Shown here: positions 58,801 through 64,000 of the stretch, piece by piece | How positions within the stretch are numbered: the first letter of the stretch is position 1 | How the letters are laid out: the number at the start of each line of letters is the position of its first letter | From: Daucus carota subsp. sativus | Lineage: Eukaryota > Streptophyta > Magnoliopsida > Apiales > Apiaceae | Reading direction: 5' to 3' | NCBI RefSeq assembly: GCF_001625215.2 | Contig: NC_030385.2 | Coordinates: 42,061,598-42,125,597 of the forward strand | DNA length: 64,000 nt | Translations under genes and position numbers: made by a program | Notes under the pieces: model-generated | What the model was told of the DNA's origin: nothing | Databases searched by the model: none | What the model saw: the letters and a program-made list of their open reading frames with translations, nothing else

Positions 58801-60353
58801 TTATGCCACCAATAGAAGCATGAAAAGAATTATTAGTGAATGTGCAGAGGAGAAATGCTTCGGTGCTGCTGCAGATTTATGTGTAGGCCATTTTGTGAAC
58901 ACCTCCATTGCAGAGATCATTGGAGGCAAGCTCGCCTTATCAGCAGGTGACAATGTTATATTAACACTTGGGCCCGATACCATCACAGGGTACTTAGTTA
59001 TCACTGTGGTTTCACCAAAATGTAATGCTTCAACCGTCCCTTGATCCTGATTGTCAATTTTAATTTTGACTGTTGCGGATGTGTTAGGATTGAAAAGGTC
59101 GCCCAGGTTTGTTATGTACAAAACAATGTAAGCTGATTGCGGGGTTGATTGTGGAAGATCAATGGTCAGAGTCATCGGATCAGATGCATTGAACATAATG
59201 GCATCTGTCAACACAGAAACAGGAGGGTAATTATCGGGTGAGGGAAAAGAACCTGTGAAACCAGAAACGCTGGCATAAGGCATAGCTTTTTTGCTCCATA
59301 TCCGGTTGTATATCTCCCCTGACCCTATGCCATACCTGAAATATTTGCAGAGTACAAAGAAAAAAAGCCATATAGACATCGGTTCTGGTTTCAAATAATA
59401 ATTAATCACAGAAAATTTATAACTATGAATGATGGAAAACATTTGTGTGTGTGGTATATGAAAGGTTAGAAACCACTGAGATTCATGACAAAACTTTACG
59501 TACCTGACTTCTTGGCCACCAAGGTTGATCCTAGTGACAAGATTATATGTTGCATTAGTATCCATCTCTGGATATAAATCATATATAACCACGGTTTCAA
59601 TTGAACTGATAAATGGAATTCCACCATCTAAAATTTGTACAAAGCAAATTTTGAAGAACCCTGACTCTTGGTCTTGATGTATGATTTCTTCGTAAAATGG
59701 CTCACCATTGTTTATTGACGTGTTAACAGTTGTCCAAATTCTGTCGTTGATGAAGAGATTGAATGTTGGCGGTTTAGAGAGACCATCGTAGTTACCATAG
59801 TAGAATCCCACCCTGATTATGTACCGGAGCTTTTGTTTCTCAGTAGGCAAAGTGTAACAATTATTTCTAGTATTGTTGGGGAAAGCGCGAAGGGTGTTAA
59901 ATTCATCCTTGCTTGCTTCTTCACGAACTCGTTTATTTGATCCTACTTGAATGTAATCAGAATCGGTGTCCCACAAGAGCAGGTTTTGAAAGCTTATTTG
60001 GTCGTTGCCACAATCAATACTCAGCCACTTCGAGGCATCTGCAGAAACGAAGATGTGTGAGATAACGTATAAATAGCTCCACCAACGATCTTGAACTTTT
60101 GTTAGAATATAATATGATCCTGGTAAGCCCTCCTCCCTGTAACAATCCAGGGTTCGGACTCAAAAATCAGGCTGAGCACAGGGTGAAGCTAACTTGGACT
60201 ACTGACAACAATGAAAGTTGCTAAAATTGAAGATTATATTTTTAAAAACGAACATAATATTGAACGGAAGAGCAAAAACAAAGTACCTTGGGAAGAAAAT
60301 GAAAGCAACTGTAAGGCTAAGAAAGTAAAAATCATCCATCCAGCTTTCGCCAT
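58801..60353 (-). CDS. Secreted malectin-like domain protein, no LRR or kinase, GPI-anchor-like tail (copy 1)
   Basis: Three exons in frame, 378 aa: 60287-60353, 59504-60038, 58801-59335. Exon 1 is a signal peptide (MAKAGWMIFTFLALQLLSFS). A malectin-like (di-malectin) region then follows: KWLSIDCGND, DEFNTLRAFPN, RYIIRVGFYYGNYDGLSKPP, GEPFYEEII, NATYNLVTRINLGG, IYNRIWSKK, and a second lobe with DPMTLTIDLPQSTPQSAYIV and PPMISAMEVFTKW. This is the ectodomain of LRR-I malectin-like receptor kinases. But instead of LRRs, membrane span and kinase, the frame stops right after KSAAAPKHFSSAHSLIILF plus five more hydrophobic residues. That small-residue patch, short spacer and uncharged hydrophobic end look like a GPI-attachment signal. 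Role unknown; a decoy or co-receptor for cell-wall sensing is speculation. Confidence 0.87.
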
Positions 60354-60809
60354 TGGTACCAGTATAAGGAGTCAAGTAAAGAGATCAGTAAATCACAACT
60401 TGCAGTCTAAAGAGAATGAGGTTAAAGCTGTAAATTTATAGTGCAGCAAACTGAAGATCTGAAGCCAACAAGAAGAAACAATTTACTTTGCTAATTTACA
60501 TGTTTCTAGTATTCATCGACCATCTTTCATACATAGTCTGCAATCAACAAACTTTTTTTAATGAAGGATCTGACAAATTTAACAAGTTTTATATAAAATG
60601 TATAACGCGGTTATCTTTACTGGTTTACTGCAAGAGAACACACCAAATCTATAGTACAATCGATAGGTACGATAACAGACAGTGATAGCATAGATATCTA
60701 GAAAATTTCAGAATATAATTTAAAAGGCAGGTAAAATGGATATCATATATAAAAGAGCTTACATCTGGTACATATTACAAGATGTATCAAAACAACTGTC
60801 TCGACCTCC
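60354..60809. other. Spacer between malectin-like copies 1 and 2
   Basis: It should contain the copy 1 promoter and the copy 2 3' UTR. The 456 bp are AT-rich with no other gene. Confidence 0.45.
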
Positions 60810-62479
60810 TTAGGCCACCGATAAAAGCATAAAAAGAAGTATCAATGAACATGCAAAGGAAAAATATTCTGGTGCTGCTGCTGATACATTCATATCCAAT
60901 TTTGTGAACACCTCCATCGCGGCAATCATTGGTGGCAAACTCGACTCATTAACACGTGACAATGTTATGTTAATAGTTGGGCCTGATACTGTCACAGGGT
61001 ACTTGGTTACCACTGTGTTTTCATTATAACCTATAGTGTCCGCGGTCCCTTGATCCTTACCATCAATTTCAATCTTTAATGATCTGGTTTGGTTAGGCTT
61101 ATTAGTGTAAACTAGTTGTGGTATATACAGAACAATGAAGGCTGATTGCGGGGTAAATTGTGGAAGATCAATGGTCAAGGTGATTGGATCAGATGCATTA
61201 GATTCAATAGCATCTGCCATTACAGATTCTGGAGGGTAATTGCTGGATGTGGCAGCATAAATTGTAGGTAAACCAGAAACATTGGCGTAAGTCGTATATC
61301 CCTTGCTCCATATCCGGTTAAATCTCTCATCAGTCAGTGGGTGATACCTGAAATATTAAACGAAGTGCAAGGAAAAAAAATCTAGTTAGTACAATATAAT
61401 ATGATCCTGGTAAGCCCTCCTCCTAACACCTTGAGGTCGACCAAAAATGGGTTTTTGTGTGAGGGGGGGTGTTAAAATATAATATGATCCTGGTAAGCCC
61501 TCCTTCTAACGCCTTGAGATTTTAGAGCAATTGGTCACTTAACACAAATCCATATGCAGACTAATCTTCCGGATTACCAAATCTATGATTGATACTGAGT
61601 ACCAAGTTAACATGTGAGGAGAAATAAATGTGTGCATATGTTGAAGGCTAGGAAATTTGAGATTTATAACAAAGAAGACTTCATGTACCTGACTTCTGGC
61701 CCCCCAAAGTTGATCCTAGTGACAAGATTATATGTGGCATTAGTATCCATCTCATAATACAATGTATGAAATATTCCCACAGTTTCGATTGAGTTAATAA
61801 ATGGAATCCCTCCATCCTGAATTTGCACCAGGCAAATCTTGAAGAACTCTGATCCTTTGTTAGGATATATGATCTCTTCATAAAACGGTTCACCTTCATT
61901 TAGTGACGTGTTAATAGTGGTCCATTTTTTGTTGTTAATGAAGAGATCGAATGTTGGAGGTTTAGAGAGGCCATCATAGTTGCCATAATAGAATCCCACT
62001 CGGATAATATATCTGACCATATCTGCATCAATAGGCACATTGTAACAATCATCTTTTGATCCATTGGGGAAAGCCCGAAGGGTGTTAAATTCATCCCTGG
62101 TTGTATTTGTGCCAACTAGTTTGTTCCATCCAGTCTGAGAGTAATCATAATCACTTCTCCATGTGAGCAGCCTGTCCTCCCAGCTTCTTTCGCTGCCACA
62201 ATCAATACTCTGCCACCTTGATGTATCTGGACCTGCAGACTTCGAATTCATGAGATACAAAATTACTGATGAAGATGAAAAGCAAACTTTGTGCATGCCC
62301 ACTTAAATTTGAGTACAATATGGACATTATCTACTTTCCTATAGTAAAATTCAACTGCTAAAATAAATATACTGTATCAGATAACTCTAGATTCTGATGG
62401 ATTGATGTACACCTCGTGAAGAAGATGAAAGCAACTGCAAAGCCAAGGATACCAAAAATATCCATCCAATTTTCTTCAT
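60810..62479 (-). CDS. Secreted malectin-like domain protein, no LRR or kinase, GPI-anchor-like tail (copy 2)
   Basis: Three exons in frame, 382 aa: 62413-62479, 61689-62232, 60810-61347. Exon 1 again has exactly 67 nt and encodes a signal peptide (MKKIGWIFLVSLALQLLSSS). The malectin-like region has RWQSIDCGSERSWEDR, DEFNTLRAFPNGS, RYIIRVGFYYGNYDGLSKPP, NATYNLVTRINFGG, FNRIWSKGYTTYANVSG and PPMIAAMEVFTKL. The C-terminus NVSAAAPEYFSFACSLILLF plus six residues matches copy 1's tail in position and character. Exon number, phases and lengths are the same as copy 1 within a few codons, so they are tandem duplicates. The 61348-61688 intron carries two copies of a short LTR-like repeat. Confidence 0.87.
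61390..61530 (+). repeat. Two short LTR-like fragments in the malectin-like copy 2 intron
   Basis: aatataatatgatcctggtaagccctcct occurs at about 61393-61422 and about 61476-61505. A third instance is in copy 1's first intron (about 60106-60135). Each starts at or near TGTTA and continues into tccttctaacgccttgag-type sequence, like the first tens of bases of a copia-type LTR. These are fossil fragments only; family is inferred. Confidence 0.5.
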
Positions 62480-63846
62480 TTTTGAATGGATGACAAGATG
62501 TATACGAAAGAGAATGAGGCGAAGGCTGTAATTTATAGTCAGATAAATCGACAACTTGAAGCTAACAAGGGGACACAATTAGTTTTTATGACACATGTTT
62601 CTTGCAGACATTCCAACTTAAATATATGTAAAGATTGTATGTGCCAGTTCAATAATTCCAAGCAGTATAAGACACATTCATCTTCTGCGGAAGTATTCAA
62701 GACATTTTCGTACAAGGTTTTAGTACTAAGATTCTATCCCAGCTCTGAATATACCAAGAATAAAAAGATTCATTCATCTTATATAGAAGAAAGAGGAAGC
62801 TACATAGAAGTGTTTAATTCTCATTAACTTAATAAATAGGTATATACCGAGAATATTAACATATTCTTGGACATAGATCTATATAATATTGATTTCTGAC
62901 AAATACAAAATGCAGTCCTGCACACAAAGATAACATACTAATCTTTCAATGAGTAAAGTTCAGAGTTAAAAGACAAAAGGAAGTTGCATAAGTTCTCCGA
63001 AACATTAATGTGGGATAAGAAATTAAACAAATTGTTCAATGATAAATCTATTGTAAAACTGTTTGTTCTTTCTGATATACCGCAGATTCAACAAGAAGTT
63101 CAGAATGTAAATTTAAACACAAATTAGATAAAAGCAGTCAGAATTGTTTTAAAATAAAAAATTTACCTGCATCAGGTAGATTTTTACAAAATGTGTCAAC
63201 GTTGCCTTTTCTTGTGTCAAATTAACTGTTTTCTACCCCTTCATGCCGCTCAGGAACAAGTTAAATAAGTTAAAAAAATTCCTCTTTCTTTTTTCTTTTC
63301 TATCATAAAAAATTCTGGAACTCAGTGCAAATGATCATAAAGATGTTTAGTATATAATATGGTTACTAACTATATAATGCAGAGAGCTCTAGAGTCTGAA
63401 CTTGATGAGGTTCTGAAGTTTAACATTAACAAAAATAATTTGCAACAAGAAAACCAGGGGTATGAGCTGAAATTTGAATCTAAAGTTCATCTTTCATTAT
63501 TAGTATGATCTTTCGGATCTTATAAAATTTTAATCAACAATGTGATGCATAAGTGTGGGATATGTAATCTTAAAATTGATATCTGATGCCCTGTAATTTT
63601 TAAAGAAACAGATCATTGCTTCAAGAAGTGTGTATTCCTTGTGATATTCTTTAGATTCTTTTACTATTTGTTCTATATTGATAAAAAATTCCGTTATACT
63701 GATATAAAAAGACAATAGAAACTGAAAAACAATCAGGATTGTTCTAAAATTAATATCTGCCTACATCAAGTAAGTTTTCGAAATGTTACATTGCTGTTCC
63801 TTTTCTGCATGTTGTGGCAAATGGCAATCTATTATTTTTCCTCACT
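62480..63846. other. Spacer between malectin-like copies 2 and 3
   Basis: It should hold the copy 2 promoter and the copy 3 3' UTR. A 113-codon frame on + (62486-62827) antisense to the promoter has no family features. Nothing else is supported. Confidence 0.4.
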
Positions 63847-64000
63847 TCATACCACCAATACAAGCATACAAAGTAATATCAGTGAATATGCAAAGGAGAA
63901 AAATTCTGCTGCTGCTGTGGATTTGCTAGGACCAGTATCCCATTTGGTGAACACCTCCATTGCAGAGATCATTGGTGGCAAGCTGAACTCATCAGCAAGT
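63847..64000 (-). CDS. Malectin-like protein (copy 3), C-terminal end only, cut by the window edge
   Basis: The last 51 codons of a third copy. SLPPMISAMEVFTKWDTG is followed by KSTAAAEFFSFAYSLILLCM plus five residues, then TGA at 63847-63849. This reproduces the ending of copies 1 and 2: malectin-like end, small-residue patch, short spacer, uncharged hydrophobic terminus. The gene continues beyond 64000 on the minus strand, so its N-terminus cannot be judged. The array is therefore at least three genes long. Confidence 0.85.
   Translation of the reverse strand, partial: LADEFSLPPMISAMEVFTKWDTGPSKSTAAAEFFSFAYSLILLCMLVLVV

Follow-up and report, generated by a model that had tools for sequence, protein, structure and literature searches.

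Two tandem arrays of kinase-free malectin-like genes with predicted GPI-type C-terminal tails in the carrot genome

The stretch of DNA analysed here, referred to as the window, comprises 64,000 nucleotides of the carrot (Daucus carota subsp. sativus) genome (C5:42061598-42125597; a window position is the C5 position minus 42061597). It holds a tandem trio of genes on the minus strand, of which A (window 60353..58801, 378 aa) and B (window 62479..60810, 382 aa) are complete and C crosses the window edge (Table 1). A first, sequence-only reading of this DNA had reported a pair of complete malectin-like genes and the last part of another, and the gene models of A and B confirm it; gene C, with its stop at window 63847 and its remaining exons running past the edge to C5:42127170, is complete in the genome and encodes 383 aa. 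Each of the three genes has three exons, with GT..AG introns and agreeing exon phases at every splice site checked. Their plan is common: a 67-nt signal-peptide exon ending in phase 1 is followed by two exons, separated by a phase 2 intron, which together encode one malectin-like domain (MLD, PF12819), and the last exon closes with small residues followed by an uncharged hydrophobic tail.

Table 1. Exons of the three malectin-like genes on C5 (window positions unless C5 is given).
Feature	Position	Strand	Evidence
Gene A exon 1, signal peptide MAKAGWMIFTFLALQLLSFSSQ	60287..60353, 67 nt	-	gene model, donor GTACTT; hydrophobic core KD 2.29
Gene A exon 2, N-terminal half of malectin-like domain	59504..60038	-	acceptor CTGCAG, donor GTACGT; PF12819 match, gene model
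Gene A exon 3, C-terminal half of malectin-like domain and GPI-type tail (KSAAAPKHFSSAHSLIILFMLLLVA*)	58801..59335	-	PF12819 match, gene model, tail rule
Gene B exon 1, signal peptide MKKIGWIFLVSLALQLLSSSSR	62413..62479, 67 nt	-	gene model, hydropathy
Gene B exon 2, N-terminal half of malectin-like domain	61689..62232	-	PF12819 match, gene model
Gene B exon 3, C-terminal half of malectin-like domain and GPI-type tail (SAAAPEYFSFACSLILLFMLLSVA*)	60810..61347	-	PF12819 match, gene model, tail rule, fold model
Gene C exon 3, in-window part, tail SKSTAAAEFFSFAYSLILLCMLVLVV*	63847..64000 (whole exon C5:42125981-42125444)	-	gene model
Gene C exons 2 and 1, beyond window	C5:42126698-42126152 and C5:42127170-42127104	-	gene model

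The reading frames had also been called intact. This is true of the spliced genes, since all copies are open once the introns are removed, but not of the genomic DNA, where two introns per gene interrupt the frame. In gene A, intron 2 (59336-59503) is 168 nt long, a multiple of three, and free of in-frame stops, which accounts for the single 452-codon open reading frame seen at this gene; an intron-retaining transcript would therefore still give an open protein. Three copies of a 46-nt sequence (ATATAATATGATCCTGGTAAGCCCTCC...) lie in the introns, at 60103-60148 (intron 1 of gene A) and at 61390-61435 and 61473-61518 (intron 2 of gene B), and look like the remains of a mobile element.

A search for further copies, which the first reading had recommended for the flanking genome, was run with one member against the whole of this genome (441 Mb in 11 contigs). 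It revealed four more genes (D-G), arranged in tandem on one strand at C4:30,011,425-30,030,157 and sharing the exon plan and the kind of tail of the C5 trio. All seven array genes, three on C5 and four on C4, are intact, with open frames, GT..AG introns, a 67-nt first exon, the domain and the tail. Members of the C5 trio are 62-63% identical to one another and those of the C4 quartet 63-76%; across the two arrays, identity is 52-60%. The remaining strong matches of this clade are short fragments at C4:38.31 Mb, C3:30.97 Mb and C7:35.08 Mb. The C3 fragment (L041:1181-1582) comprises 402 bases (404 alignment columns), matches the 3' end of gene F at 92% identity and sits 134 bases upstream of an ATG; the first 16 or so codons from this ATG resemble the start or a piece of a MYB gene. 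A similar fragment is found at C7:35077473, and a mobile element may have carried such a piece of gene. For the domain at large, a PF12819 search of the genome gave at least 104 exon-level matches.

In gene A, PF12819 (Malectin_like) matches residues 30-348 over profile positions 1-330 of 331 (E 8.8e-56), that is, over nearly the full length of the profile, as in a malectin-like domain protein. The profile was found in all six proteins scanned (A-F), and both domain exons of gene G, which stood outside that scan, match in the genome search. The intron-bearing MLD genes of this genome have the domain split at a common place, at about profile positions 173-180. Each of the seven proteins carries 5-10 N-glycosylation sequons. 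From a structural perspective, the AlphaFold2 model of gene B exon 3 (mean pLDDT 68.8) predicts a beta-sandwich that extends to residue 149 or so, followed by a linker of low confidence and by a helix at residues 158-177 of 178. In Foldseek, this second half of the MLD gave weak matches to CBM35/36 modules and to the FERONIA ectodomain (E about 8e-4); the phage tail fibres that ranked best are unrelated (rmsd 13-17) and were given no weight. The first half was modelled with low confidence (mean pLDDT 50.7), and its Foldseek matches are weak, none of them at E<=0.001. When the PDB was searched by sequence, the alignment of A-F gave no match at E<=0.01, and gene B gave three at E<=1, which is chance level.

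The N-terminal signal peptide seen in the first reading, and expected of a GPI-anchored protein, is predicted in all seven genes from a 10-residue core with a Kyte-Doolittle (KD) value of 1.65-2.54, judged by hydropathy only. The hydrophobic tail with no charge after it is equally general: the last 14 residues are free of D, E, K and R in 7/7 genes (mean KD 2.52-2.96), the hydrophobic run reaches the last or last-but-one residue, and small-residue triplets stand upstream of it in every case. A home-made GPI rule was applied, requiring small residues at the cleavage site and two after it, followed by a hydrophobic uncharged end (threshold 1.5; the part of the tail scored comprises 13-16 residues). 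All seven tails pass, with their small-residue site, spacer and uncharged hydrophobic end, in line with the GPI-transamidase-type pattern proposed before; among the other frames that end in a stop and have 60 aa or more, 19 of 709 pass, or 18 of 669 when L009, which repeats window sequence, is left out. As positive controls we took two plastocyanin-like proteins (PF02298) from this genome, which we assume from their family to be GPI-anchored; both pass, one of them barely (1.57 against 1.5). When the last 34 residues of each gene were shuffled, 49-270 of 2000 versions still passed, so the rule is met partly by composition, though composition does not suffice. Moreover, in a simulation of neutral drift, the stop, the absence of charge and a KD of at least 2.4 were kept together in 17.7% (gene B) and 24.1% (gene E) of cases at 0.15 substitutions per site, in 4.8% and 7.4% at 0.3, and in 1.2% and 1.8% at 0.5. 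The character of the tail has thus been retained despite a divergence that, if neutral, would usually spoil it. From these features of sequence, the tail is quite likely to be a GPI attachment signal.

The tail could also have been kept as a transmembrane anchor, in a short type-I membrane receptor-like protein that signals via a lateral partner or acts as rice OsCBM1 does at the ER and plasma membrane. A paper devoted to transmembrane receptors does include At1g24485 of Arabidopsis as a malectin receptor-like protein, as far as its accessible text goes (PMC9603095), and the MLD-only OsCBM1, located at the ER and plasma membrane, is described in the available part of another source as interacting with OsRbohA (PMC8651890). 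Furthermore, the 18-27 residues at the C-terminus that contain no D, E, K or R and the predicted tail helix of 20 residues are long enough to span a membrane. A transmembrane anchor without a following charged residue is, however, unusual, and here the run ends at or next to the last residue in all seven proteins, with small-residue triplets before it. Because of this position at the very end and of the small residues upstream, the GPI signal is favoured, and a transmembrane anchor appears fairly unlikely.

With regard to the receptor kinases, 13 LRR and kinase exons from three MLD-LRR-kinase-type genes of the same genome, used as probes, found nothing at E<=1e-3 either in the 88 kb surrounding the C5 array (the window plus L009-L012, C5:42,061,598-42,149,599) or in 50 kb around the C4 array (L015-L019); a very divergent kinase could escape such probes. 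As a control, the 13 probes match across genes in all three source loci, and the LRR probes also in five other MLD loci. The claim that LRRs and kinase are lacking at a common position in every copy is therefore borne out within these 88 kb, and the full-length LRR-I kinase neighbour that was to be looked for around the C5 array was not matched there. Splicing past the stop into kinase exons was considered and rejected, as the 58.8 kb that follow gene A within the window contain no such match (E<=1e-3). The seven genes show neither the LRRs and kinase that follow the MLD in LRR-I receptor kinases nor the LRR that follows it in RLP4-type proteins, the stop coming after the tail within the MLD exon with no LRR match nearby; nor do they have the MLD-TM-kinase, typically intronless, form of CrRLK1L genes, since they contain two introns and gave no kinase match. 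Elsewhere, at C4:25.989-25.999 Mb (L013, L014), three tandem MLD genes were noted, one or more of them with an LRR exon of GDPC type, and with transmembrane-plus-basic segments; no kinase match was found in C4:25,972,000-26,011,999, and the trio looks like an MLD-LRR receptor-like-protein cluster.

Beyond the seven and their fragments, the best-scoring match, at C3:63.825 Mb, is 35% identical and the next, at C3:56.258 Mb, 39%; each belongs to a gene with downstream LRR and kinase exons. A tree was built from the first MLD exon in 23 rows (the seven array genes and 16 other MLD genes, CrRLK1L rows not among them), and there the seven form one group with support 99/99 and a stem of 0.86 changes per column. 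The C3:63.825 kinase gene, on a long branch, lies near the seven in this tree, and such joins may be false. Among the 16 other genes, the three labelled as kinase do have kinase exons, and no kinase match was obtained for the three C4:25.99 genes and for L025, L026 and L028 within the stretches probed. The long stem apart from the 16 others, together with the lack of a kinase or LRR match nearby, led us to reject a recent truncation of a neighbouring receptor kinase. The ectodomain of the seven genes is under purifying selection, with an MLD dN/dS of 0.21-0.41 in 21/21 pairs at dS 0.31-1.37 (pairwise Nei-Gojobori); the tail, with few sites per pair, gives 0.28-1.04, looser than the domain. Seven intact copies in one group, purifying selection, a kept tail and no kinase or LRR nearby bear out the view of a maintained short form, as opposed to a random truncation.

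Such a bare ectodomain might act as a surface or secreted decoy, or as a dominant-negative form, competing with full-length LRR-I or CrRLK1L proteins for a ligand or partner. The missing signalling domain and the tandem expansion would suit this role, and the C5 trio shows, near the start of the second MLD half, two overlapping 30-codon windows (alignment columns 216-257) with dN/dS of 1.19 and 1.55 at low dS, a hint rather than a test of positive selection. On the other hand, 30-codon windows over the domain gave no dN/dS >1 in the C4 quartet, and the low identity to the two best outside MLDs, both with kinase exons, and the long stem are far for a mimic; this explanation is distinctly unlikely. 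That the seven are functionless, decaying truncated LRR-I receptor genes is very improbable: receptor clusters often contain such remnants and family fragments do lie on C3, C7 and C4, but all seven array copies keep open frames, GT..AG introns and a constrained MLD at the dS given above, and LRR and kinase matches are absent nearby.

It is on balance probable that the seven genes encode GPI-anchored, ligand-binding receptor-like proteins that would require a partner kinase, as the LYM proteins do. A cleaved signal peptide would direct the protein into the ER, where it would be N-glycosylated; secretion and glycosylation are suggested by the signal peptide and the sequons. GPI transamidase would then remove the hydrophobic C-terminal peptide, leaving the bare malectin-like ectodomain on the outer leaflet of the plasma membrane, a surface location that is predicted with good confidence. 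There, the ectodomain may bind a cell-wall carbohydrate, a peptide ligand or another ectodomain and present it to a receptor kinase; lacking a cytosolic part, the protein would need a partner to act. Roles as co-receptor, decoy or chaperone, put forward in the first reading, are inferences. The closest working model would be that of the LysM proteins LYM1 and LYM3 acting with CERK1, and by this analogy a co-receptor role can be tentatively proposed. The ligands of malectin-like receptor kinases are largely unsettled; a malectin-like protein tethered to the surface and devoid of a kinase could serve as a convenient bait in looking for them, and would be a candidate shared co-receptor. It appears rather doubtful that the genes represent an undescribed class of GPI-anchored malectin-like receptor proteins, an old clade in two tandem arrays acting as kinase-free ligand-binding co-receptor for LRR-I or CrRLK1L kinases; if true, such a class would do for malectin ectodomains what LYM and CEBiP do for LysM. 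In the model case, according to the accessible text of Bellande et al., the GPI-anchored proteins LYM1 and LYM3 bind peptidoglycan, and their mutants show defects also seen in cerk1 mutants (PMC5485988).

The novelty implied by the first reading was overstated, because a rice paper, in its accessible parts, already records MLD proteins that lack a kinase in Arabidopsis, rice and strawberry and gives, of 69 such proteins in Arabidopsis, nine with LRRs and no kinase and one with the MLD only, and 17 kinase-less members in rice (PMC8651890). For poplar, the available text of a second paper lists kinase-less MLD-LRR proteins and explains the members without LRR by unequal crossing over, through which the domain was probably lost (PMC7783096). 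For Arabidopsis, Bellande et al. assign four soluble-type malectin proteins to the LRR-linked group; in the main text, as far as it is accessible, predicted GPI anchors are mentioned for L-type and LysM proteins and no such statement was found for malectin proteins (PMC5485988). The same text reports several soluble-type lectins, members not named, in GPI-anchored proteomes, so that a malectin member may already be on record. In the accessible portions of five further papers, no GPI-type malectin protein is described (PMC7783096, PMC8651890, PMC9603095, PMC9319948, PMC8121149). Within the main texts covered, mostly of open-access papers, no published description of a GPI-type malectin protein was found, for carrot or for Arabidopsis. 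Kinase-less MLD proteins are therefore a known kind (Arabidopsis At1g24485, rice OsCBM1), and the new part, within the literature searched, is the GPI reading in an LRR-free tandem clade kept in two arrays.

Among known systems, At1g24485 and At3g46240 of Arabidopsis and OsCBM1/OsMRLP15 of rice share with the seven a malectin-like domain without a kinase, and OsCBM1 is described with the MLD only and at the ER and plasma membrane (PMC8651890, PMC9603095). The accessible parts of these sources hold no statement on a GPI signal for them, and these proteins, compared by description only, may belong to the same family as the seven. The MLD-LRR receptor-like proteins (RLP4, At1g28340) are likewise malectin-like and kinase-free; unlike the seven, they retain LRRs after the MLD, according to the available texts (PMC9319948, PMC7783096). 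As regards the LRR-I receptor kinases, the intron-bearing MLD genes of this genome have the MLD split at the same place as the seven, and the two best-scoring outside matches carry LRR and kinase exons. LRR-I kinases have an MLD-LRR-TM-kinase architecture (e.g., IOS1 and SIRK1), whereas the seven have no LRR, no transmembrane-plus-cytosolic part and no kinase, and form a separate group in the tree. The CrRLK1L proteins FERONIA and ANXUR, together with LORELEI/LLG, recall the seven through the malectin-like ectodomain of FER and the GPI-anchored partner LLG; the LLG proteins themselves are not known to be malectin-like. CrRLK1L genes carry a kinase and are typically intronless, in the text available to us (PMC7783096), whereas the seven have two introns and no kinase match. 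Finally, LYM1, LYM2 and LYM3, with rice CEBiP, resemble the predicted proteins in their signal peptide, carbohydrate-binding-type ectodomain, GPI anchor (in the LYM proteins) and lack of a kinase; they differ in having LysM in place of a malectin-like domain, and the ligand and the link to CERK1, which are reported for them, are inferred by analogy for the seven.
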